Origin: Pseudorhodobacter aquimaris
GTDB lineage: Bacteria > Pseudomonadota > Alphaproteobacteria > Rhodobacterales > Rhodobacteraceae
NCBI RefSeq assembly: GCF_001202025.1
Contig: NZ_LGHS01000073.1
Coordinates: forward strand, 1-42,909
Length of the DNA: 42,909 nt
Direction: 5' to 3'
Shown piece by piece: positions 6,846 through 42,909 of this stretch. The position numbers were made by a program, and so were the translations under genes. How positions within the stretch are numbered: position 1 is the first letter of the stretch; each line of letters opens with the position of its first letter. The notes below the pieces were generated by a model that saw only the letters and a list, made by a program, of their open reading frames with translations, did no database searches and was not told where the DNA came from.

Positions 6846-7481
6846 ATGCGGATTTCGAAACTCTTTTTGGGGGCATCCCTCCTGACACTGGCCGCCTGCG
6901 GTCCAGGCTTTGACCAAGAAATTGGCGGCGGTGCCACAGATTTCGGCAATGCCACAATGAACAATACCCTGATCCAGTCTGGGCAAAAGGACTATGCAAT
7001 TGCCTTGGCGGGCCGTTTCGCGCGTGAAGTGCCCTCAACAATCACATTCGCTTTTGATTCAGCACATCTGGATGCAAGATCGGTTTCCATCCTGCGCCAG
7101 CAAGCGGATTGGATCAAGGCGTTTCCCGAGGTACGGTTCCGCGTCTATGGCCATACCGATCTGGTCGGGACGTCAAGCTATAACAAGGCGCTCGGCCTGC
7201 GGCGCGCCAAGGCTGTGGTGGCCTATTTCGCAAGTCAGGGCATCAGTCGGGACCGGCTGGAAGCGCTTGCCTCTTTTGGCGAAACCCGCCCGCTGGTGCA
7301 AACCGCTTCACCGGAAGAACGCAACCGTCGCACCGTCACCGAAGTGTCCGGTTTTGTGAAAAATCATCCGACCGTGTTGAATGGGAAATATGCTGCCGTG
7401 ATTCACCGGGAATATATCGACCTTGCACGACGTCCCCATCCGGCAAATCAGATCATCCAAACGCAGACCAACCCCGGCTAG
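6846..7481 (+). CDS. OmpA-family lipoprotein of the tad locus
   Basis: A 211-aa protein with a lipoprotein signal (lipobox LAAC, Cys19) and a C-terminal OmpA/MotB peptidoglycan-binding domain at about 55-165, with FAFDSAHLD, the YGHTDLVG motif and NRRTVTE. It probably anchors the secretin complex to peptidoglycan. It starts 5 bases after cpaC, with GGAG in the end of cpaC as ribosome site, so the two are coupled. In this position many other tad loci have cpaD; this OmpA-like gene occupies the slot here, which fits Rhodobacterales loci. Confidence 0.88.
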   Translation: MRISKLFLGASLLTLAACGPGFDQEIGGGATDFGNATMNNTLIQSGQKDYAIALAGRFAREVPSTITFAFDSAHLDARSVSILRQQADWIKAFPEVRFRVYGHTDLVGTSSYNKALGLRRAKAVVAYFASQGISRDRLEALASFGETRPLVQTASPEERNRRTVTEVSGFVKNHPTVLNGKYAAVIHREYIDLARRPHPANQIIQTQTNPG

Positions 7482-18832: not shown

Positions 18833-21800
18833 ATGCGCATCCTGTCTATTTCCGGCCAGAATATCGCCAGCCTTGCCGCACCATTCGAGATCGATTTTAC
18901 CGCCGAGCCGCTGCACAGTGCCGGCCTTTTTGCCATCACCGGCGAAACAGGGGTCGGCAAATCCTCGATCCTCGATGCGATGTGCCTTGCCCTTTATGGC
19001 GAGGCCCCGCGCCTGACCTTGGGCGGGTCAAAGGACGATGTGCCCGATGTCGGCGCCGACACGATCAAGGCCCAGGACGCGCGCTCAATCCTGCGGCGGG
19101 GCGCGGCGCAAGGCTGGGCGGCGGTCAGCTTTGTCGGCCTCGACGGTGTCGCCTATAAGGCCGTCTGGACCGCGCGCCGGGCCCGCGACCGCGCCACCGG
19201 CAAGCTGCAAGCCGTGCAGCGCAGCCTGAGCCGCATCGCCGATGGTCACGTTCTAGCCAGCCAGATCACCGCCGTATCCGAGCAGGTGCAGATGCTCAGC
19301 GGCCTGTCCTATGATGAATTCCGCCGCACCGTTTTGCTGGCGCAAGGCGATTTTGACGCCTTCCTTAGGGCCGAAACCAACGACCGCGCCGCCTTGCTGG
19401 AAAAAGTCACGGGCACCAAGCTTTACCGCGACATCTCCGCCCGTATCTTTCAGCGCACCGAGGCCGTGCGCGGGGTCTATGACGGCCTGATCCTGCGGCG
19501 CGGCGAACATCGCCTGCTGACGGATGAGGACCGCGCAGCCCTTGAAGCGGAACGCGAAACCCTTGCCACGCAAAGCGATGCGGCGCACGCCCTGCGCAAG
19601 GCCCATACCGCCGATCTGGATCGCCACGCCCGCCATGCCAATGCCAAGGCCAAGCTGTTGGCGGCACAGACCGCCGAGACACAGGCCCTTGCCGCACAGG
19701 CTGGTGCTGCCGCTGATCGTGACCTCTTGCACCGGATCGAGGCGGCCGAACCCCTGCGCCTGCCGTGGGAAAATGTCAAAGCCGCCGAAGAGGCCCGCAC
19801 CAACGCCGAGGCCGCCCTTGCCGATGCCATCACCGCCCTGACCGCTGCCGAGGCCACGACCGCAGAGCGCCAAGCTGCGGCCACCCGCGCCCAACAAGCC
19901 CAAGCCGAACGTGAGCAGGAATTCAAGACATTCGGCCCCCTCTGGACCCGTGCGGCGCAATTGGACACGCAGATTCTTTCAGCCCGCCAAGAGGCTGCGA
20001 ATGCCTCAGACACCGCCAAAACCGCGACGTCCGAGGCCGCAACCGCCCGCCAAAATGCCGTCGATCTGCTGTCAGCACATGCCAAGGCAGGCCAGTCACA
20101 GCAAGAGGCGAGCAACCTTCTGGCCACCCTCGGCGCGATTGCGCCCCTCGCGGATCAAAGGGACCAACTGATCCGGGATCTAAGCGCCCGCGACACAGCC
20201 GATAAAGCCCATGCCGATGCCACGGCCCGAGCCCGAGCGCTGGCCCAAAAAGCCACGGTCTTGGCCGCTGAAATTTCGCAATGCGATGCAGCCGATAATA
20301 AGGATCGCGATCAGCGCGACAGCCTGACGACACAAATCGCCAAACAGGCATCCCAAATTGCCACGATTGAGGCCAGCGCACCACAAGAGCGCGTTGAGAC
20401 CTGTTCCAGCCTGATCGCCGCCCTGACGGCACTGGACGCGGCGCAGCAAAACCACTTGGCGGGACAAAACCGCATCGACCGCGCCCAAACAGCCCATGCC
20501 AAAGCCACATCTGATGCCGAGGCCGCAGCCCTTGCGCGCGCCGCCGCCCTTGAGGCCGAAACGCGGGCGGATGCCACGCTGCAGGCCCTCGCCGCCCCGA
20601 TGGAACGTGCCGATCTTGCCGTGACCGAGGTTGCCCGCCAAATGCGCCTGCGCCTTGAGGCCGGGACCCCCTGCCCCGTCTGTGGCGCGACCGATCACCC
20701 GACCGCCTCGGATGCTGCCATTGCCAGCCTCGCGGCACAGTTGCGCTCAGATCAGGACGTCGCCCGTGTCAATGCCAAAGCCGCCCGCGACAGCGTGAAA
20801 GAGGCCGACACAAATGCCACGCTGGCCCGCGTGCAGAGGGAACAGGCCGAGACCGAGATTGCCACTGGCATCAAAGACTTGCACCGCGCTGCGACCGCGT
20901 GGCAACAGGCCTTTGACCAAGCCACAGCGACCGAAATCTGCCCGCCGTTGCCCGCGACGCCCCAAGCGCCCACCCCCTCGGTTGCCGTTGCCATTGCCCA
21001 AGGTGAAACCATGCGCCTTGCAGCCCGTGAAGAGACGCGCAGCCTCTCGGCCCTGCGCAAGAGCCATTCCGAGACGATGCAGCAACGTGACGCGCTGACC
21101 CTTGCCATGGAACAACGCACACAGGCCAAGGCAGCACTTCGCGAAGACATAGGCAAAACCGCACAAGAACAAGCGCTTGCCGATCAGACCGCTAGCCATC
21201 AACGCCAGCGGAAAGAGGCGCTTGATGCCACGCTGCTGCCGCTTCTGGAAAGGTTGGCAGAATCCGCGTCGGCACTGGACGATATCGCGGGCCTGCAACA
21301 GCGGATTGAAGAAAAACTGGACACGTTTACCACCGCCCGGGAGGCCTTGACGGCCGCCGACACCCGTCTTGCCGAGCTTACCCCCCGACTTGCAACGGCG
21401 CAATCGAGGGCCGAACAGGCAACGGACCGCGCCGATCAAGCCGCGCAGATGGCCACATCACGGCGCAATGCGCTCTGTGATCTGACCGAGCAGCGCGCCC
21501 GACTTCTGGGCGGGGAGCCTACCGAAACCCACCGCACCCGCATCAACACCGCCCGGCTTGACGCGCATACATTGGCCGAGGCAACCGCCCGCACCCTTGC
21601 CGAGGCAAGCACCCGCACTGGTACCGCTTTGGGTCAGAAGAGCGCGGCCCTTGCGGCGCTGGACAAGGCCAGCGCCAATGTGAGCCATCGCCAAAATGCC
21701 CTCAACGCGGCCCTCATCGAATCCGAGCTGACGGCACAAAGCCTTGGCGCTTTGCTAGGCCGTAAGCGCACCGAGGTTGAGGGTATTCGACGCGCCCTGC

Positions 21801-22558
21801 GTCAATATGACGAGGCGGCAACCGCGGCCAAAGCGACCAAATCCGCGCGTCAAACCGATGTTTCCCTAGCCGCCCAAGACCTGCCCGAAGCGGACGTCGA
21901 AACCCTGACTGACGCGCTCAACAGCCTCGATCTGGCCCAAAGCGCCCGTCAGGAACGTATCGGCGCGATCACCGGACAGTTGGGTGCGGATGCCGAGGCC
22001 CGCAAGGCGCTACAGGGGCTTGAGGCAGAAATCGTCACCGCCAAAGCCGATCTTGAGGTCTGGCAGGCGGTGAATGCCGCCGTCGGCTCACGCAGCGGGG
22101 ATAAATTCGCGCGCACCGCCCAGTCGATCACCCTTGATGTGCTGGTCGACCGCGCCAATCACCATCTTGCCGATCTCAAACCGCGCTACCGCTTGCGGCG
22201 AGCAACCGATCTGGCCCTGCATATCGCGGACCGCGACATGGGCGGCGAGACCCGCGCCACCCGCAGCCTTTCGGGCGGCGAGCGGTTTTTGGTCTCCTTG
22301 GCGCTGGCCTTGGCTCTGTCACGGATGGGCGGCAAGGGCGGATTGGCGGCAACGCTGTTCATCGACGAGGGCTTTGGCTCTTTGGATGCCGAAAGCCTCG
22401 ATCTTGCCATCGACGCGCTGGAAACCCTGCAATCGCAGGGCCGCAGCGTCGGCGTCATCAGCCATGTTGAGGCGATGAAGGACCGAATCCCCGTGCAAAT
22501 CCGCGTCAAACGTCAAGGCAATGGCAAAAGCAGCGTGCAGGTGGTTGCGCCAAAATAG
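18833..22558 (+). CDS. sbcC: Exonuclease SbcCD subunit C (SMC-like ATPase)
   Basis: A 1241-aa Rad50-type ATPase partner of SbcD. Walker A GETGVGKSS lies at about 37-45. Long Ala/Gln/Glu-rich coiled coils flank the zinc hook CPVCG near residue 614. The ABC signature LSGGERFLVSLALALA is at about 1144, Walker B TLFIDEGFGSLDAES at about 1175-1190, and the H-loop VISHVEAMKDRIPVQI near 1215. Length is within the family range (1000-1250). The high-GC Ala-rich coiled coil creates many long shadow frames on both strands; those are ignored. Confidence 0.96.
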   Translation: MRILSISGQNIASLAAPFEIDFTAEPLHSAGLFAITGETGVGKSSILDAMCLALYGEAPRLTLGGSKDDVPDVGADTIKAQDARSILRRGAAQGWAAVSFVGLDGVAYKAVWTARRARDRATGKLQAVQRSLSRIADGHVLASQITAVSEQVQMLSGLSYDEFRRTVLLAQGDFDAFLRAETNDRAALLEKVTGTKLYRDISARIFQRTEAVRGVYDGLILRRGEHRLLTDEDRAALEAERETLATQSDAAHALRKAHTADLDRHARHANAKAKLLAAQTAETQALAAQAGAAADRDLLHRIEAAEPLRLPWENVKAAEEARTNAEAALADAITALTAAEATTAERQAAATRAQQAQAEREQEFKTFGPLWTRAAQLDTQILSARQEAANASDTAKTATSEAATARQNAVDLLSAHAKAGQSQQEASNLLATLGAIAPLADQRDQLIRDLSARDTADKAHADATARARALAQKATVLAAEISQCDAADNKDRDQRDSLTTQIAKQASQIATIEASAPQERVETCSSLIAALTALDAAQQNHLAGQNRIDRAQTAHAKATSDAEAAALARAAALEAETRADATLQALAAPMERADLAVTEVARQMRLRLEAGTPCPVCGATDHPTASDAAIASLAAQLRSDQDVARVNAKAARDSVKEADTNATLARVQREQAETEIATGIKDLHRAATAWQQAFDQATATEICPPLPATPQAPTPSVAVAIAQGETMRLAAREETRSLSALRKSHSETMQQRDALTLAMEQRTQAKAALREDIGKTAQEQALADQTASHQRQRKEALDATLLPLLERLAESASALDDIAGLQQRIEEKLDTFTTAREALTAADTRLAELTPRLATAQSRAEQATDRADQAAQMATSRRNALCDLTEQRARLLGGEPTETHRTRINTARLDAHTLAEATARTLAEASTRTGTALGQKSAALAALDKASANVSHRQNALNAALIESELTAQSLGALLGRKRTEVEGIRRALRQYDEAATAAKATKSARQTDVSLAAQDLPEADVETLTDALNSLDLAQSARQERIGAITGQLGADAEARKALQGLEAEIVTAKADLEVWQAVNAAVGSRSGDKFARTAQSITLDVLVDRANHHLADLKPRYRLRRATDLALHIADRDMGGETRATRSLSGGERFLVSLALALALSRMGGKGGLAATLFIDEGFGSLDAESLDLAIDALETLQSQGRSVGVISHVEAMKDRIPVQIRVKRQGNGKSSVQVVAPK

Positions 22559-22570
22559 CGGCTGAACCGT

Positions 22571-23779
22571 TTACGCGCCACCCTCATCGGCGGCAAGAAA
22601 GGCAACCAGGCTGTCCAGAAACTGCACGCAAGTGTCCAGCTGGTCCAAGGCCACAAATTCATTGGGTTTATGCGCCTGATCAATAGAGCCGGGCCCGACG
22701 ATTACCGCAGGGATGCCGCCGATCTGCTCAAACACGCCACCCTCAGACCCATAGGAAACCTTACCCCCCCATTCCGGCAAAAGCCGTGCATAACGGTTGA
22801 AGCCGAGGGTATTGCGGGCATCGCCCATGGCGGGATAGGCAAAGATCCGTTCAAAGGTGATGCCTGTGCTTGCGGTTTTTGCCTGCATCGGGACGGCGAC
22901 CTCATGCGCTATTCTGTCCAGAAGCGCGGCCAAATCAGCCTCCGGGTCCATCCCGCTGATAGAGCGTAATTCAAAGGTAAATTCGCAATTCTCCGGCGTG
23001 ACATTGGTGGCAACCCCGCCGTTCACCATCGTCACCAGCATCGTTGCATGGGGCACGGTGAAATCGGGATCAAACGGCCCTTCGCCCTCATAACGTTGGC
23101 CACGTTCCGAGATCAGGGCAATCGCCTTTGCCGCATATTCGATCGCATTGACATGTTCGGGCGCAAAGGACGAATGCCCCGAGGTGCCCGTCACCTTTGC
23201 GCGCATGGCGATCTTGCCCTTTTGGCCGGTGATCAGCTGCATCATCGACGGCTCACCGATGATGGCGAGTTCGGGCGGAACCGGAAGCCCCGCCAGATAT
23301 TGCGCGATTGCCGGCGCGCCAAGACAGCCGACCTCTTCATCATAGGAAAAGCACAGATAGACCGGACGCGACAGCGCCGCACGCGCCAGATCCGGTGCCA
23401 CTGCCATGACACAGGCGGCAAAGCCCTTCATGTCACAGGCCCCGCGCCCGAAAAGCTTGCCATCACGGATCTCGGCGACAAAGGGGTCGCTTGTCCACTC
23501 CGGCTCATTGGCGGGCACCACATCGGTATGGCCGGACCAGACGACACCGGGTTTATCCTCGGGGCCAAAGGCCGCAACAAGATTGGCCTTCTGTCCTGTC
23601 TCATCTGGCAAGATGGTGATCCGCGCGCCAAGATCGGCAAAGTAACCGGCCATGAAATCGATGAGCGGCCGGTTTCCATTGCGCGAGACCGTATCAAAAG
23701 CGATCAAATTTGCCAGATGCTCTGCGGCCTTGCCCGTCCGGTCATTGGTTGCGCAGGTGGTCCCGTCCAAGAGTGTCAT
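22571..23779 (-). CDS. argE: Acetylornithine deacetylase-like M20 peptidase
   Basis: A 402-aa M20-family metallohydrolase. Metal and catalytic residues are His84 and Asp86 in SGHTDVVP, Asp116 in GACDMKG, and Glu148-Glu149 in SYDEEVG. This matches ArgE, which removes the acetyl group from N-acetylornithine in arginine synthesis. The start codon overlaps the tctA stop by four bases (ATGA), so it is translationally coupled to the transporter. That context suggests it might hydrolyse an imported N-acyl amino acid rather than, or as well as, acetylornithine. It ends 12 bases from sbcC, convergent. Confidence 0.85.
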   Translation of the reverse strand: MTLLDGTTCATNDRTGKAAEHLANLIAFDTVSRNGNRPLIDFMAGYFADLGARITILPDETGQKANLVAAFGPEDKPGVVWSGHTDVVPANEPEWTSDPFVAEIRDGKLFGRGACDMKGFAACVMAVAPDLARAALSRPVYLCFSYDEEVGCLGAPAIAQYLAGLPVPPELAIIGEPSMMQLITGQKGKIAMRAKVTGTSGHSSFAPEHVNAIEYAAKAIALISERGQRYEGEGPFDPDFTVPHATMLVTMVNGGVATNVTPENCEFTFELRSISGMDPEADLAALLDRIAHEVAVPMQAKTASTGITFERIFAYPAMGDARNTLGFNRYARLLPEWGGKVSYGSEGGVFEQIGGIPAVIVGPGSIDQAHKPNEFVALDQLDTCVQFLDSLVAFLAADEGGA

Positions 23780-35974: not shown

Positions 35975-36114
35975 AGAAACCCCCTTCGCCGCCCCGTCTA
36001 TTTTACAGAAACAAGTTTCTGATCTGTTAACGATGGCAAACTCTTCTTGACCCTTCCGGCCGTTGCGCTTAGCACTTGGCCATCCGAACGGGTGCAAAAT
36101 TCCTGCCCCGCTCC

Positions 36115-36191
36115 GGGCCTGTAGCTCAACTGGTTAGAGCAGGGCGCTCATAACGCCTTGGTTGCGGGTTCAAGTCCTGCCGGGCCTACCA
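36115..36191 (+). tRNA. tRNA with CAU anticodon, probably tRNA-Ile2 (lysidine)
   Basis: A 77-nt cloverleaf. GGGCCTG (36115-36121) pairs with CGGGCCT (36181-36187) with two G-U pairs, followed by discriminator A and encoded CCA (36189-36191). The anticodon loop CTCATAA gives CAU. C4-G69 and C5-G68 match the determinants used by TilS to convert C34 to lysidine in tRNA-Ile2; elongator Met tRNAs usually lack both. D and T arms are regular. It marks the edge of the accessory island. Confidence 0.85.
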
Positions 36192-36212
36192 TTCCCTCTT
36201 GTCACATGCCAA

Positions 36213-36251
36213 TAGGGCATAAGTTTGCCCGTTTTAGGGGTAGTTTTGCCC
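36213..36251 (+). repeat. Two direct repeats at the island's tRNA-proximal end
   Basis: TAGGGCATAAGTTTGCCC (36213-36230) and TAGGGGTAGTTTTGCCC (36235-36251) share TAGGG, TA and TTTGCCC, start 22 bases apart, and sit just inside the proposed TGT terminus. Tn7- and Tn5053-like ends carry such arrays of about 20-bp transposase-binding sites. Confidence 0.55.
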
Positions 36252-36309
36252 ACTCCCTGTCAAGAGAAATCTACCAGCGCACGCCAATCGCTTGCGTCTG
36301 TTGATGGAA

Positions 36310-38148
36310 TCAGGCGTTCCTGTGTCCGGTCGCGCGTAATGCCTCCTCGACCTCGCTACGAAGATAGAGCGTCCCGACATTTCCTTTGCCCGCCAGATAG
36401 GGCCGGACAGCCGCACCATTTAGGATGCTGCGCGAAATATTTCGCTGCAGCCCGAACTCCTGTTCGATCATCGTCAGGTTCAGAAAGCGGGCGCGGAACA
36501 CGGCGATAGATGATTCCGAAACCGTCCACATGCGCCGTCGCGTGACGGGGTGGATAATGGATTCTGCTGCCAGGTCTCCGGATTCTACCAAGGCTAGAAG
36601 CTGCGCCGCATCGCGGATTCCGATCCCGCGCCCGAATTCGGAGAGAGATGCCGCACGACCAGTCTCCGCAGGGGAGGCGTTCTCCATGTTAATGACATCG
36701 GCGATACTGACCTGAAACCCATGATAGCCCGCACTTGGTGACTGTTGTCTCAAACTCAGGAGCCCCGCGCGCAGGCTAGCGAAGATCCGAGCGATGCTCA
36801 CGCCGGTTCGAGCTTGGGCAATCTGGATAGGAACCCAGTCCTTCGCATCACCAGGGTCGCTGGGCAGAACATAGCCTTTTAACTCACGGATCAGGATCTC
36901 TGCGTCCTTCGGATCCCACCGCAACCGCGCCGTGTTTAAGGAGGTGCGGGGCATCAGGATTCCTGCGTGCTCCAGCGCCGTCATTTCGCCCTTGGTGGCC
37001 CCGAGCGCTTTCCGTAACACCCCGTCCGGAACGAGTGCCGAGATGCTCTCCAGCAGAGAGGCGAATTTGCGGGCATCGAATGTCACACGCGCATGGGGGC
37101 GGTGATCATCGGCGGCGATTGCTCCGGCCTCGACCAGCAACGGTCTCAAGCGGTCAGGATTGACGCTGAGCTCATTCGCGGCGGTGGCGACCGAGTGAAC
37201 ACGCCGCTCGGGAATAACGTGGCCAAGGACACTTTCTCCGGCGGCCAACGGCCAGAGGTCGAGAACTGCTTCGCGCAGGATACCCCGGAACACGTCAAAG
37301 GCTAGCTCCTGATTAAGATGTCGACCCAGTGTCGTGAACATTCGATGGTAAACCTGCCGGACACCATCACCCACGCCATCACCTTCGAAAGACAGCTGGA
37401 TCAGTTTAGCTTTAATCGCGTCCGGCCCATGCCTGACGATCTCGAAGCCGGCCGCACATGCCGCGTGCTGATGGGCGATGGGATCTGCTTCTGCCGGGAT
37501 CAGCCCCGTTCCAAACATCCGACAAAACGCGGCGGCTGCGGAGGTGCTGTGCGGGGCAAGCCATGTCTGGTCTGGTTGCCTGGAAAGACGGTCATCCAAC
37601 CAGAGATCGAAGCAAGAGGGTTCGATGTCCGCCCCGTCAATCTGACCGGACATGATCCGATCCAAAATCAGGCGCAGCTGGAACTGCATGTCAAACCTGC
37701 GCGCAGGTTGATCCTCAGTCCATAACGGCACAAGCCGCATGCTATGGTGAAGACATGTCGAGACCTCACGAAGTTGCCAGTCGCCCCGCATGACCATGGC
37801 GCTGGTTGGCTCGGATGGGGCTAGGGCGGCATCTTCGCGCAAGCAAGCGGGACAGCCGCGGACAATAGGACTGCGCAAGGCTCGCGAGATGACGGTGTCG
37901 CCTCTATAGTCCAATCGAACATTGCCGACGCGGACGCCAGTCCAGGACAAAAGCTCTTCTGTGTCGTGAGGCGTAAGTCGCGCCCAGGCGGACAGTGCTT
38001 CAATCATTTCAGGATCGCAGATCAGGAAGCGGTTGAAGCTCCCTCTCAAATCGTATGCGAATTCCGGAGTTGCGACACCCTTTGAGGCCGCCAGCCGCGA
38101 CAGATAGGACGGCAAGGTCTCACGGTCGGCGGGGCGAAGTTGTGTCAT
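36310..38148 (-). CDS. TniQ-family protein (TnsD/TniQ-like)
   Basis: A 612-aa TniQ-family protein. Residues 10-140 match the TniQ domain: LPSYLSRLA near 12-20, and a zinc-binding set Cys99, Cys102, Cys132 and His135 (CPAC, CLHH). The remaining ~470 residues are helix-rich with several helix-turn-helix-like segments (for example ISRSILNGAAV near 585), fitting DNA recognition. In Tn7-, Tn5053- and CRISPR-associated transposons, TniQ/TnsD chooses the target. Here it reads toward the tRNA end of the island with no transposase or TniB/TnsC gene beside it. It could be the surviving targeting gene of a transposon whose other genes lie beyond the window, or a domesticated protein. Confidence 0.82.
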   Translation of the reverse strand: MTQLRPADRETLPSYLSRLAASKGVATPEFAYDLRGSFNRFLICDPEMIEALSAWARLTPHDTEELLSWTGVRVGNVRLDYRGDTVISRALRSPIVRGCPACLREDAALAPSEPTSAMVMRGDWQLREVSTCLHHSMRLVPLWTEDQPARRFDMQFQLRLILDRIMSGQIDGADIEPSCFDLWLDDRLSRQPDQTWLAPHSTSAAAAFCRMFGTGLIPAEADPIAHQHAACAAGFEIVRHGPDAIKAKLIQLSFEGDGVGDGVRQVYHRMFTTLGRHLNQELAFDVFRGILREAVLDLWPLAAGESVLGHVIPERRVHSVATAANELSVNPDRLRPLLVEAGAIAADDHRPHARVTFDARKFASLLESISALVPDGVLRKALGATKGEMTALEHAGILMPRTSLNTARLRWDPKDAEILIRELKGYVLPSDPGDAKDWVPIQIAQARTGVSIARIFASLRAGLLSLRQQSPSAGYHGFQVSIADVINMENASPAETGRAASLSEFGRGIGIRDAAQLLALVESGDLAAESIIHPVTRRRMWTVSESSIAVFRARFLNLTMIEQEFGLQRNISRSILNGAAVRPYLAGKGNVGTLYLRSEVEEALRATGHRNA

Positions 38149-38849
38149 GGCTGGGCAGATCCTTATCGGGCGGTAGTATAACCCAGATTAGCCTGGAAGG
38201 GCAGAGGTGCTCACGCCCCTAGGCCCTCGCCATCACTGCAAATGCGAAAAAAGAAAACCGATTTCATCTTTCGCAAGGGGGTAAACGGGCCCGAAGCCAA
38301 GCGGGGTTGGCGATCAGGCTCTTCGAGATAAGAAATTCGCACAACAATATTTTTATCGTTTTAAATCAATAAGATATGTGTTGTCATAGGCGTTCCTCCG
38401 CGTTAGTGTAATGGGGTGGATACGTTCGAATCTGGCTGTCCATCAATGACGGCGCGGGCTTGCAAGTGCGCCTGCCTGCGACCCCGACGACCTGCTCTGC
38501 TTCACCGGTTATGCCGCGGTTAGGTCCTTGCAGCCGATGAGTGCGCCATTTCTGACCCACCGATGCATCCGCCATCGGTGTCGATGGAGGATTGCCGATG
38601 AAGACAATACTGCTCTGAACAACTGGTAGCGCTTCGACGCGCGCTCTGCCTGCAGCCACGCTAATTGACGCGCCAGCTCATCTACACGAGCGGCGAACGG
38701 CGAAAGGGGTGGCCATCGCAGGGTGAATGACGCCGCAACCCACAGTGGCGATCAAGCCTGTCCTCACAAGCAGGCACCGCCTGTCTCGCAAAATTCGCTC
38801 CCGGCCGGGCTTTCTCGGCCGCCGGTCCCCTCATGCCTGGAGTTATCTC
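38149..38849. other. 701-bp region between tniQ and the AAA ATPase gene
   Basis: Divergent promoters must lie here. An A/T-rich stretch (about 38338-38380) is a candidate promoter zone. At 38416-38540 the plus strand has coding-like sequence split by a one-base shift (YVRIWLSINDGAGLQVRLPA, then CDPDDLLCFTGYAAV), possibly the eroded end of an accessory gene. No intact gene was recognised. Confidence 0.45.
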
Positions 38850-39959
38850 ATGGCCACCATTCCCTTCATTGAGGCTCGGTTCTTCGATCCGAGCGAAAGC
38901 CGCTTCGAACTCGAGAACCGCCTCAGACGGCACCTGCGCATGCTGCGCGTTAAGAAGTTGCCGCCGAGTGTGCTGATGCCGCCCGAAGATGCGCTGGATG
39001 ACATCGACAGCTTCGACCCGCATCTGATGGGGATCATCGGCATCACCTCCGATGACGATGCCTGCATCAAGCGTCGGGTCAAGCGACTCCAAGACCGGCG
39101 TAAGGCTGCCTCCGGCCTCGAGCATCTTCGATCCGATGACCGGACCCGGCTGGAGGCGCTGAAAGACGGCGCACGACTGGTCTCGATCCCGAGCGAACAT
39201 CGCGCCGATGAATTGGCAGCGGCTTTACACGAGGACATGCCGTGGATGGCACTGGCGACCGAAATCGTCTGGCAGGCCATGCGCCGCTCCGTTCGGGAGG
39301 GTTGGCCGGGGCTTCGTGTGCCACCTTTGCTGCTCGACGGTCCGCCAGGCATCGGCAAGAGCCACTGGGCGCGCCGCCTTGGTGAGTTGCTGGCGGTGCC
39401 CACCACGGTGATCGAAGCCACGGGCGAGAACGCTAGTTTTGGCATCGTTGGATCGCAGCGCGGATGGGGCGGTTCCTACCCCGGTCGCTTGATCGAAACC
39501 ACGTTGCAACATCGTGTGGCCAGCCCAGTGATGGTCGTGGATGAGGTTGAAAAAGCGGGGCTGGCCACGTCAAACAAGGGGCACACCTTTGGGCTGGCCG
39601 AAGCACTGTTGCCGCTTCTGGAACCTCTGACGGCAAAGCGTTGGAGTTGTCCCTATTATCAGGTGAAGTTCGATATGAGCTGGGTGGTGTGGGTGCTGAC
39701 ATCGAACGACTGCCGGCTGCTCCCGGAGCCATTGCTCAGCCGCTGTCCGCCGATCCAGATGCGCCATCTTACCCCCGCGGAGCTCCTGGGCTTCGTTCGC
39801 CGCGAAGGGGCCAAGCGCGCCTTGTCCGAGACTGCGGTCGAAGCGATCTGCGAGGTCCTCTCCCATCCGTCCATCCAACGTCACCACCTGAGCCTACGGG
39901 TCGCCATTCGGATGCTGCAACGCGCTGACGATCTCGACAGCGGACCGATGCAGCACTGA
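38850..39959 (+). CDS. Lon-like AAA ATPase without protease domain
   Basis: A 369-aa AAA ATPase. Residues 1-140 are an unrecognised charged helical region. Walker A GPPGIGKS is at 164-171 (Lys170), followed by a Trp/Tyr-containing loop GWGGSYPG (about 205-212), Walker B VMVVDEVEKAG (227-237), sensor-1 VLTSND (about 289) and an Arg-finger region LLSRCPP (about 300). The module follows the order of the Lon AAA domain, but the protein ends before any Ser-Lys protease domain. Start ATG 38850 has GGAG 8 bases upstream; an in-frame ATG at 38727 would add 41 low-quality residues. It heads an operon with two small genes. Confidence 0.82.
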   Translation: MATIPFIEARFFDPSESRFELENRLRRHLRMLRVKKLPPSVLMPPEDALDDIDSFDPHLMGIIGITSDDDACIKRRVKRLQDRRKAASGLEHLRSDDRTRLEALKDGARLVSIPSEHRADELAAALHEDMPWMALATEIVWQAMRRSVREGWPGLRVPPLLLDGPPGIGKSHWARRLGELLAVPTTVIEATGENASFGIVGSQRGWGGSYPGRLIETTLQHRVASPVMVVDEVEKAGLATSNKGHTFGLAEALLPLLEPLTAKRWSCPYYQVKFDMSWVVWVLTSNDCRLLPEPLLSRCPPIQMRHLTPAELLGFVRREGAKRALSETAVEAICEVLSHPSIQRHHLSLRVAIRMLQRADDLDSGPMQH

Positions 39960-39997: not shown

Positions 39998-40465
39998 ATG
40001 AAGTTGTTACCCGACGACCGAGACTGGATCGACAAGGCACTTTTCGCCATCAACGCTGTTGAGGCAGGACCATCCGACGCCGACATCACGAATGCGCCGG
40101 TCCTGTCCGACTGGATGCCCGCGATCTCTCCGTTCTCGCACGTGATCCTGGTGGGTAAAGTGGTCGGCCACCCAACTCTTGGCACCCGCAGCATCACGAC
40201 TTCCCAGTTGATCGCGATCCATCCCGAAGCCGGCTGGGCTAGGACGGTGTCGCGTTGGTATGGTCTCGCGCAGCCAAAGCCTGCGTCTAAGGAAATCTTC
40301 GCGAGTAACCTTGGTCTGAAGAGCCCCATTGCGGCCCGGTTTGCGATCACCGGCTTCATCACCCTGGCTAATTTGGGCGATCTCGACGAGATCCTCTCGG
40401 CAAACATCGTGCAGATCCGCCAAATTGATGCGGCCGACCGCGCCGCGTCCGAACAGGAGGACTGA
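39998..40465 (+). CDS. Small conserved hypothetical protein, possibly DUF6634
   Basis: A 155-aa cytoplasmic protein with no signal or membrane segment. The central part (about 40-95: MPAISPFSHVILVGKVVGHP, then TTSQLIAIHPEAGWARTVSR, WYGLAQ) resembles small alphaproteobacterial island proteins that I recall as DUF6634; that name is tentative. The C-terminus is acidic and polar. It lies 38 bases after the AAA gene, and its stop is one base from the phosphoesterase start, so the three genes form a compact operon. Function is unknown. Confidence 0.6.
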   Translation: MKLLPDDRDWIDKALFAINAVEAGPSDADITNAPVLSDWMPAISPFSHVILVGKVVGHPTLGTRSITTSQLIAIHPEAGWARTVSRWYGLAQPKPASKEIFASNLGLKSPIAARFAITGFITLANLGDLDEILSANIVQIRQIDAADRAASEQED

Positions 40466-40466
40466 C

Positions 40467-41021
40467 ATGCATTGGTTCTCCTCCGATCCGCATTATGGCC
40501 ATCACAGGATCATTGATTTCTGCAACAGGCCGTGTCCAGACACCGCCGCGATGAATGCACAGCTCTTGGCTGAGTGCCGCGAGCGGGTCGGGCCCGATGA
40601 CGATCTCTGGATCCTCGGCGATTTCAGCGCGGGAAAAGCCACGGACGCACAGCGGCGGGAGGTGCGCAGTATTTTCCACGCCCTCCCGGGGCGTCGACAT
40701 CTGATCAAGGGCAACCATGACGTCCCTTGGGTGCGCGATCTGCCTTGGGACAGCATGGCGGAAACTGCCGACATCGTGGTGGATGGGAGACGTCTCTACC
40801 TGTGTCATTATCCTATGATCACCTGGCCTGGCGCGCGGCGGAATGGCCTGCAGCTCTTCGGCCACGTTCACCAGAATTGGCAGGGCTCTCGAAACGGCAT
40901 CAACGTAGGGGTTGACGCTTGGGACTTTCGCCCTGTGACACTGCCCGAGATCGAACTGCGCGCGGCCACGCTGCCAGTCAATGCCCATTGGCATCAGGTC
41001 GAACCGCGCAGCATGCGTTGA
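40467..41021 (+). CDS. Calcineurin-like metallophosphoesterase
   Basis: A 184-aa metallophosphoesterase with the full metal-site set: SSDPHYGH (5-12), GDFSAG (about 52-57), KGNHD (about 80-84), CHYPMITWP (about 110-118) and FGHVHQNW (about 131-138). Start ATG 40467 follows AGGAGG and lies one base after the preceding stop; the longer frame from 40329 is an overlap with the previous gene. Possible substrates are phosphodiesters, nucleotides or phosphoproteins. It is the third gene of the AAA operon. Confidence 0.85.
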   Translation: MHWFSSDPHYGHHRIIDFCNRPCPDTAAMNAQLLAECRERVGPDDDLWILGDFSAGKATDAQRREVRSIFHALPGRRHLIKGNHDVPWVRDLPWDSMAETADIVVDGRRLYLCHYPMITWPGARRNGLQLFGHVHQNWQGSRNGINVGVDAWDFRPVTLPEIELRAATLPVNAHWHQVEPRSMR

Positions 41022-41168: not shown

Positions 41169-42037
41169 TCAACGTTCAAGCCGCACACGCAGTCGGCGCG
41201 CACGCTCTTTGAAAGCTGCTTCTCCTCCCTCCAGGATATCGCATACTTGCCGCCGCATACCTGCATCCTCAAGTCCACCGGAGACATAAGTGATCGGAGG
41301 TAGCTCGCCAGGACTATGAGTGCCGGCGGTCGCAACGATGATCTGATCAGCATCCGTATTGATGACTAGGTTGGCGTTGTGCGTCACCATGATTACCTGA
41401 CGCTTCGCCTTGGCCGATATGAACAGGCTTACCAGTTCGTCGAAGATCGACTTCGGATCGAGGTTTTCCTCCGGTTGGTCGATAATTAGGGGGCGGTGAT
41501 CGGTATCATCGAGCGCTAGGTAAAGAAGAAGCAGGACGATCCCTCTCGTGCCGGGCGACAGTTTACTTATGTCGGTCCCTTCATAGTCGATGCTATATTC
41601 AATCTGGATGTGGTCAGTGCTGAACAGCCATTTGGCAAACCGCATTAGCCAACGACGATATGCCGGAGCGTCATTAGCCGGAACCTTCGCAACCGCCGTC
41701 AGATCATCCTGCCATGCTTCCGTGAATAGTTTTAGCGCCTGACCGATCGCCGAGACGTCACCCTTCTCCCAAGCGGCACGCATATGCTGGTTGGCCCATT
41801 GTGCAATCGATCCCTTACCCTTGAAATCACCCGTCTGGCGAAGATCGAACAGCTGCTCGCCCAATGCGGCCCACCCTCCTACATCGGCGCGGCGTGTCGC
41901 TGAAAAGGATAGTTTCCGCAATGTGCCTTCTGCGGCGTGCAGTCGATCCACGAGCGGCTGATAAAGATCTCTAAGAACCTGCTCCTCGGCGAGGATCGCT
42001 TTGAAGACGCGAAGGTAAGTCTCCTGCCGATGTTGAT
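41169..42037 (-). pseudogene. C-terminal part of an ABC/TrlF-like ATPase gene, interrupted by IS21
   Basis: An open frame on the minus strand from the IS21 border to 41169 codes for about 289 residues. It begins DNQHRQETYLRV at the IS edge, so the natural N-terminus is missing. Features of the C-terminal ATPase half are SPGTRGIVLLLLYLALDD (signature-like), RPLIIDQPEENLDP (Walker B and D-loop) and VIMVTHNANLV (H-switch). The pattern resembles TrlF-like or other large AAA/ABC ATPases found in defence islands. Walker A must lie beyond the IS. A GTG at 41951 could start a fragment, but a functional product is unlikely. Confidence 0.7.
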
Positions 42038-42080
42038 TGTCACTGAGAACTGACCCGGCATTGTCACCGAGACTTGACCC
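42038..42080. repeat. Tandem 19-bp terminal repeats of the IS21 element
   Basis: Two 19-base copies at 42038-42056 and 42062-42080 differ at only three positions (TGTCAC[T/C]GAGA[A/C][C/T]TGACCC). They are presumed IstA binding sites at the end of the element. Confidence 0.8.
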
Positions 42081-42103
42081 ACCCAGCTGTTATGTTCTTT
42101 GCG

Positions 42104-42895
42104 TCATGATGGCGTCAATGCTGCTGTCTCCTTTCGTTTCTTTTTCGCTGTCTCAGAGCTGGCCTTGAACCGATAGCTGTCATTACCTGTCTCAAGGATG
42201 TGGCAGCGGTGGGTTAGGCGGTCGAGTAGCGCGGTGGTCATTTTCGCATCGCCGAACACGCTGGCCCATTCGCTGAAGCTCAAGTTCGTGGTGATGACGA
42301 CGCTGGTGCGCTCGTAGAGTTTACTGAGAAGGTGGAACAACAACGCGCCTCCCGAAGCGCTGAACGGCAGATATCCCAGCTCATCCAGGATCACCAAGTC
42401 GGTTTTCACCAACGCCTCAGCGATCTTTCCGGCCTTGCCTTGGGCTTTTTCCTGCTCCAGCGCATTGACCAACTCAACCGTTGAGAAGAAGCGGACGCGT
42501 TTACGGCGATGTTCGATCGCTTGGATGCCAAGAGCGGTAGCGACATGCGATTTCCCGGTTCCTGGGCCCCCGATCAGCACTACGTTTTCGGTCCCATCCA
42601 TGAACTCGCAGCGATGCAACTGGCGAACCAAGGCTTCACGGATTTCACTGGCGGCAAAGTCGAAGCCAGAGGGGTCCTTGTATGCCGGGAAGCGTGCCGC
42701 CTTCATTTGATAAGCGACGGAACGAACCTCACGTTCAGCCATTTCGGCCTTGAGCAGCTGCGACAACATGGGGATCGCTGCGTCGAAAGCGGGCGATCCT
42801 TGCTCATGCAGGTCCTGCACAGCCTGCGCCATGCCTGGCATTTTCAGGCTACGCAACATGATGACGATGGCAGCACCAGCGGGATCATGACGCAT
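42104..42895 (-). CDS. istB: IS21-family helper ATPase IstB
   Basis: A 263-aa DnaC-like AAA ATPase that helps the IstA transposase choose and engage a target. Walker A GGPGTGKS is at 109-116 (Lys115), Walker [13 protein letters not shown] at about 170-181, and a sensor region [13 protein letters not shown] at about 202-214. The tail is Lys-rich. The start ATG 42895 is supported by the family N-terminus [20 protein letters not shown]; another ATG follows nearby. The reading frame of istA would overlap just to the right. Confidence 0.93.
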
Positions 42896-42909
42896 GACGT
42901 GTTCCCCCC

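Follow-up and report, generated by a model that had tools for sequence, protein, structure and literature searches.

A probable transposon end beside the tRNA in the window

The locus raises the question whether the DNA that begins just behind a tRNA gene of Pseudorhodobacter aquimaris is one end of a transposon directed to that gene. The contig (NZ_LGHS01000073.1, analysed over its full 42,909 bp and here called the window) very probably does carry such an end: the DNA from 36207 rightwards is best explained as the end, on the target side, of a Tn7-like transposon guided by TniQ, probably tens of kb long, with tRNA-Ile2 as its attachment site. The original prediction had proposed an end of this kind, and tRNA adjacency, conserved ends and tnsABC in relatives, together with a target duplication in Paracoccus sp. 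DMF-8, bear it out.

The attachment gene, tRNA-Ile2(CAT), lies at 36115–36191 on the plus strand and is intact with an encoded CCA. ARAGORN labelled this tRNA Met, its anticodon being CAT. Four CAT genes occur among the 29 distinct tRNAs of the genome (30 of the 37 tRNA matches were read), and because the other three look like two initiator genes and one elongator Met gene, which we take them to be, Ile2 is the better label, as had been predicted. Two congeneric genomes matched positions 36000–36191 (90% and 83%), the matches ending at 36192 and 36197, and unrelated DNA therefore starts directly 3' of the tRNA. A relative in P. fontiphilus agrees with the window only from approximately 36205.

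Fifteen chosen loci, the window included, were aligned from different tRNA contexts. They have in common a block consisting of TG, 8 bp, GCATAAG..TGC, GGTTTT..TGC.CACCC and TGTCAAG, from which some members depart in part. In the window the block covers 36207–36267 on the plus strand, with the terminal TG at 36207, 15 bp 3' of the tRNA. It includes two imperfect direct repeats, GGGCATAAGTTTGCCC at 36215–36230 and GGGGTAGTTTTGCCCAC at 36237–36253, which are putative TnsB sites 1 and 2, followed by the conserved TGTCAAGAGA at 36258–36267. By manual count the repeats agree at approximately 11 of 17 positions, and the pair was absent from the output of an ungapped repeat finder. The two direct repeats announced earlier are thus present, though imperfect. 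Their importance lies in the recurrence of both blocks in the 14 other element ends aligned; TnsB would bind both. Across the aligned elements the variable stretch from CCA to TG is approximately 10–16 bp long (manual count), and the termini are TG, often TGC. A pattern built from the window and DMF-8 ends had a single occurrence in the window and none in 100 shuffled versions, a result that speaks only for its uniqueness. No plasmid matched the end region of the window.

A complete relative in Paracoccus sp. DMF-8

The position of the terminus was settled by a complete element in Paracoccus sp. DMF-8 (NZ_JARJHL010000010.1, approximately 796812–849763, 52,952 bp; coordinates derived by arithmetic). 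Here tRNA-Arg(CCT) at 796725–796801 is followed by 10 bp and then, at 796812, by an element end matching that of the window. Beyond it come tniQ, the AAA, DUF6634 and phosphoesterase genes, approximately 42 kb of further DNA, tnsA, tnsB and tnsC, and finally an inverted end at 849763. CAAAG stands outside both ends as a perfect 5-bp target duplication, and the terminus is therefore fixed at the base matching 36207. This moves it 7 bp further in than the TGT at 36200 originally taken as the terminus, and the distance to the tRNA, put at 8 bp, measures 15 bp. CCTCT likewise gives way as flanking duplicate to TCACA (36202–36206), which by analogy with CAAAG is the candidate 5-bp target duplication of the window copy. 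A second copy of TCACA flanking the window element was not found in any sequence examined.

The DMF-8 element shows Tn7-type insertion, and it is the only complete element for which a target duplication was worked out. It has inverted ends with repeated transposase sites as well as the 5-bp duplication, while the window holds the proximal end only. The DMF-8 genome has a second copy of tRNA-Arg(CCT) on another contig. When the joined flanks of the element were compared with 121 genomes of the genus, none of the matches listed ran past the junction as an empty site would. In Paracoccus genomes, many full copies of tRNA-Arg(CCT) are accompanied on the same strand, approximately 9–46 kb away, by a 3' fragment of the kind left by integrase islands, spanning approximately positions 28–31 to 77–80.

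TniQ and its relatives beside tRNA genes

The first gene inside the end (36310–38148, minus strand) encodes an intact TniQ/TnsD-type target selector of 612 aa (PF06527, E 2.4e-17), and its C-terminus faces the tRNA, as predicted. A structure model of the protein (pLDDT 83, pTM 0.60) matched solved TniQ proteins with a best E of 3.8e-5; the N-terminal fold resembles solved TniQ, and the C-terminal part is rich in helix-turn-helix-like units. The model also weakly matched DNA-binding proteins resembling MerR and Xis (E of 0.4 or higher), which would suit these units and is no evidence taken alone.

TniQ matches were obtained in 95 of the 394 genomes of the family. Twenty TniQ loci were taken from GTDB contigs, and 53 loci were examined, 48 distinct and 40 near-full-length (at least 85% of the query covered). 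In 21 of the 40 near-full-length loci a tRNA 3' end faces the TniQ C-terminus at a distance of no more than 350 bp (12 Arg-TCT, 5 Arg-CCT, 3 CAT and 1 Gln-TTG); without two later-added loci, L099 and L117, the count is 19 of 38. Of 772 other ORFs with a length of 100 aa or more in the stretches retrieved, 2 were placed likewise beside a tRNA, and these control stretches, chosen around such elements and partly overlapping, are if anything enriched in tRNA sites. Two loci, L071 and L068, have a tRNA 1.4 and 2.8 kb from tniQ, respectively. No tRNA was found beside tniQ in 17 of the 40, including L040, which by eye adjoins a tRNA-Arg fragment. A 3'-half fragment of tRNA-Arg(CCT) adjoins L078, which stands outside the 40, having only the last 95 codons of tniQ on its contig.

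When 37 TniQ proteins were placed on a midpoint-rooted tree, those with a tRNA close by fell in one group of 24 (support 80), made up of 19 members with a tRNA within 350 bp, one with a fragment (L040), one with a distant tRNA (L068) and three with none. The remaining 13 of the 37 rows, on other branches, had no tRNA within 350 bp. One TniQ branch (L049/L073, L082, L074 and L077) comes from genomes that carry tnsABC, with no tRNA beside tniQ. A search for the attachment site of the tRNA-less branches gave no inverted 13-mers shared between the two sides in G432 and G334, and a single, chance-like one in G433.

These data bear on another origin of the boundary, namely insertion of an ordinary tyrosine-integrase island into the tRNA, with tniQ as passenger cargo. 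Such an origin can draw on tRNA genes being common integrase sites, on the 3'-half fragments of tRNA-Arg(CCT) some tens of kb from full copies in Paracoccus and on the fragment of this kind directly at the element end of P. fontiphilus. We regard it as highly unlikely, since the conserved end begins 10–16 bp outside the tRNA and not within it, the same end recurs behind four kinds of tRNA, and the DMF-8 element combines tnsABC with inverted ends and a duplication of 5 bp. None of the seven window proteins scanned is an integrase; the far boundary, where such an island would have a direct repeat of the tRNA 3' end, lies outside the window.

Neighbouring genes and insertion sequences

Further into the Tn7-like element, the window encodes an AAA ATPase (38727–39959, plus strand; PF00004), a neighbour conserved in the DMF-8 element and in some others. 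Its gene recurs beside tniQ or tnsA in the window, DMF-8 (L167), L069, L071, L085 and L118, and the best PADLOC match of the protein was weak. It is followed on the same strand by a DUF6634 protein (39998–40465; PF20339) and a metallophosphoesterase (40467–41021; PF00149), each cargo or accessory and 54% and 82% identical in DMF-8, respectively. On the minus strand lies the C-terminal remnant of an AAA_21 (Ppl/AriA-like) ATPase (41169–42030), cut by an IS21-family copy (42031–42909, minus strand, istB at 42104–42895) with which the contig ends. Contig C23 of the same genome (L107) also holds a type III restriction enzyme and a candidate defence protein, PDC-S08; judged by sequence, these genes and the Ppl/AriA-like remnant are candidate defence cargo.

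The IS21-family element accounts for 20 ends in the 77 contigs of the genome (the window and 19 further places) and breaks up both the assembly and the transposon. Joining the window to C23 through IS21 target duplications was tried and abandoned: comparison by eye of the flanks of the 20 ends gave one agreeing pair, C11 with C13, and left the flank of the window unpaired. Elsewhere in the genome, contig C15 carries at approximately 19994–22582 (L002, L106) a distant second TniQ together with a transposase gene of the Mu type, which may represent a Tn402/Tn5053-like element.

Transposition genes and the state of this copy

The absence of a transposase, noted in the original prediction, holds for the window; the genome, however, encodes TnsA on C23 (9,428 bp), along with a TnsB interrupted by IS21. 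The two proteins are 84.8% and 87.0% identical to their DMF-8 counterparts, respectively, and C23 gave the only strong TnsB-profile match in the genome. Neither a protein search nor one with DMF-8 DNA recovered TnsC or the far end from the genome; an empty result of this kind, lacking a positive control, is weak evidence. The window copy has therefore probably lost its mobility.

We infer that the window end and C23 belong to one common element. There is some chance, clearly the smaller one, that the C23 genes come from a different element than the window tniQ, as the contigs are unjoined, the IS21 flanks unpaired and a second TniQ relic lies at another tRNA of the genome. Against such a separate origin, which would be compatible with the Tn7-like reading, the closest relatives found for TniQ (79%), TnsA (85%) and TnsB (87%) all lie in the single DMF-8 element, and no other strong TnsB-profile match exists in the genome.

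The original prediction had also called the element possibly degraded or domesticated. Degradation is likely, TnsB being broken by IS21; nothing was found in favour of domestication. That tniQ has become a domesticated or orphan gene at the tRNA, retained for another role, is in our view very unlikely: tniQ is intact, TnsB truncated and TnsC and the far end missing from the searches, as such a history would have it, but the genome still encodes TnsA and TnsB with 85–87% identity to the DMF-8 proteins, the AAA, DUF6634 and phosphoesterase genes are common to both elements, and the end is intact. Recent decay of the transposon fits better than a new role for tniQ.

In relatives, TnsA, TnsB and TnsC were all present in DMF-8, Donghicola, Ruegeria, Pacificibacter, G294, G334, G099 (the same species as G433), G432, G434, G435 and G438; in some tnsABC-bearing genomes tniQ is on a separate contig or of a branch without tRNA. 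None of the three was found in the fetched long stretches of G247, G225, G015, G007, G348 and G335. The TnsB profile matched solved CAST TnsAB (E 2.6e-21) and Tn7 TnsB (E 0.0017), and the TnsC of relatives gave a TniB/AAA match. TnsA had no Pfam match, and a model of it (pLDDT 77, three sequences) matched Tn7 TnsA (1t0f/1f1z, E 3.6e-8, TM approximately 0.4). The tnsA and tnsB genes are separate frames in L070, L076, L069 and others, with no fused TnsAB.

At the position of the active-site residues Q130-x-K132 of Tn7 TnsA, 15 of 16 aligned TnsA rows have (F/Y)-V-R and one has Y-V-K (L070, L069, L076, L107, L169, L085, L111, L116, L119, L120, L170, L172, L179, L180, L181 and L183, some of which are the same element). 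Going by these residues, the TnsA nuclease may be altered or dead, which, if true, could mean cointegrate products.

Target choice and its changes

On contig C30 of the window genome, a 58-aa C-terminal TniQ relic lies approximately 150 bp behind tRNA-Arg(CCT), and a second tRNA of this genome has therefore probably also been used as an attachment site. Sister proteins in the TniQ tree can differ in target, as do those of the window (Ile2) and DMF-8 (Arg-CCT), which at 79% identity are separated by one target change, and those of L035 (Arg-TCT) and L039 (CAT). Over the 20 labelled rows of the tree, with L040 counted as Arg-TCT, at least 8 target changes are needed. In L174 (approximately 7140–7260) and L181 (approximately 615–665), two Tn7-like ends stand back to back, by eye with approximately 8–10 bp between them, which suggests tandem insertion at the same site. 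It is possible, though rather doubtful, that one TniQ lineage reads a 3' half common to several tRNAs, leading to isoacceptor hopping and tandem stacking, with the active-site residues of TnsA changed.

Two candidate determinants of target choice were discarded. TniQ residues 401–500 had been considered as the tRNA-reading part on account of an identity dip in two target-switched pairs, which failed its control: among pairs of more than 45% identity the dip was -0.129 in the 22 that share a target and -0.128 in the 9 that do not (p 0.84), and over all pairs it was slightly larger for the same target. A TCCT motif after the T-loop, by eye frequent in the 23 target tRNAs and present in 5 of the 29 tRNAs of the window genome, was dropped as a shared mark, the 23 being four isoacceptors and non-independent.

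Proposed mode of insertion

The locus is read as a Tn7-like end because TniQ C-termini face tRNA 3' ends far more often than control ORFs do, because an end sequence is common to 15 loci behind different tRNAs, and because the DMF-8 element is complete, its inverted ends each flanked by CAAAG. It is so read also because the TnsA, TnsB and TnsC of relatives match known proteins, with TnsA and TnsB present in the genome itself, and because of the TniQ relic on C30 and the back-to-back ends in L174 and L181. What is observed is the anatomy, the position beside tRNAs, the conservation of the ends, a single 5-bp duplication and the presence of tnsABC in relatives. In the proposed mechanism, the C-terminal helix-turn-helix array of TniQ would bind the 3' part of the tRNA gene, and the bound TniQ would recruit TnsC, which would activate TnsA and TnsB seated on the repeat sites at both ends. 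Insertion would take place approximately 10–16 bp behind the tRNA, always with tniQ on the tRNA side and tnsABC at the far end, and would yield a 5-bp duplication while leaving the tRNA whole. We infer these binding partners, and that the window element moved in this manner.

Comparison with known elements

The closest counterpart of the window element, that of DMF-8, has the same end, the related TniQ, TnsA and TnsB and the shared AAA, DUF6634 and phosphoesterase genes, and differs in being complete and in standing behind tRNA-Arg(CCT). Tn7 is alike in its TnsA, TnsB and TnsC with a TniQ-domain selector, its 5-bp duplication and its whole attachment gene. However, Tn7 targets glmS and the present group tRNA genes, and whereas the tns genes of Tn7 sit together at one end, in the present group tniQ occupies the side next to the tRNA and tnsABC the opposite one, between termini beginning with TG, often TGC.

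Elements of the Tn7 type that target tRNAs are already known, and insertion via TniQ/TnsD behind tRNA genes is published. A review describes tRNA genes as repeatedly adopted attachment sites of Tn7-like elements, also via TnsD and TniQ (PMC11406308), and insertions located downstream of tRNAs are mentioned by Benler et al. (PMC8649781). The I-B2/I-D CAST (PmcCAST, McCAST and CyCAST) and their non-CRISPR relatives are likewise Tn7-like, with TniQ/TnsD directing insertion behind tRNA genes. In contrast to the separate TnsA and TnsB of the present group, this tRNA-targeting branch has fused TnsAB (PMC11406308) and CRISPR-guided second pathways, and CyCAST inserts approximately 30–33 nt behind tRNA-Leu (PMC10293859), compared with 10–16 bp behind several tRNAs here. 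Type V-K CAST resemble the present group in using mostly diverse tRNA genes as attachment sites, which differ between close relatives (PMC11406308), but find them by a guide RNA, whereas the present group has a large TniQ.

A literature search covering mainly the main texts of openly accessible articles listed no paper on the present group. The little-described group consists of new tRNA-targeting Tn7-like elements that work in a known way. It adds to the Rhodobacteraceae a group of Tn7-like elements with an often-changing tRNA attachment site, and its target-switching TniQ proteins form a natural set in which to study the reading of tRNA genes by proteins of the TnsD type.
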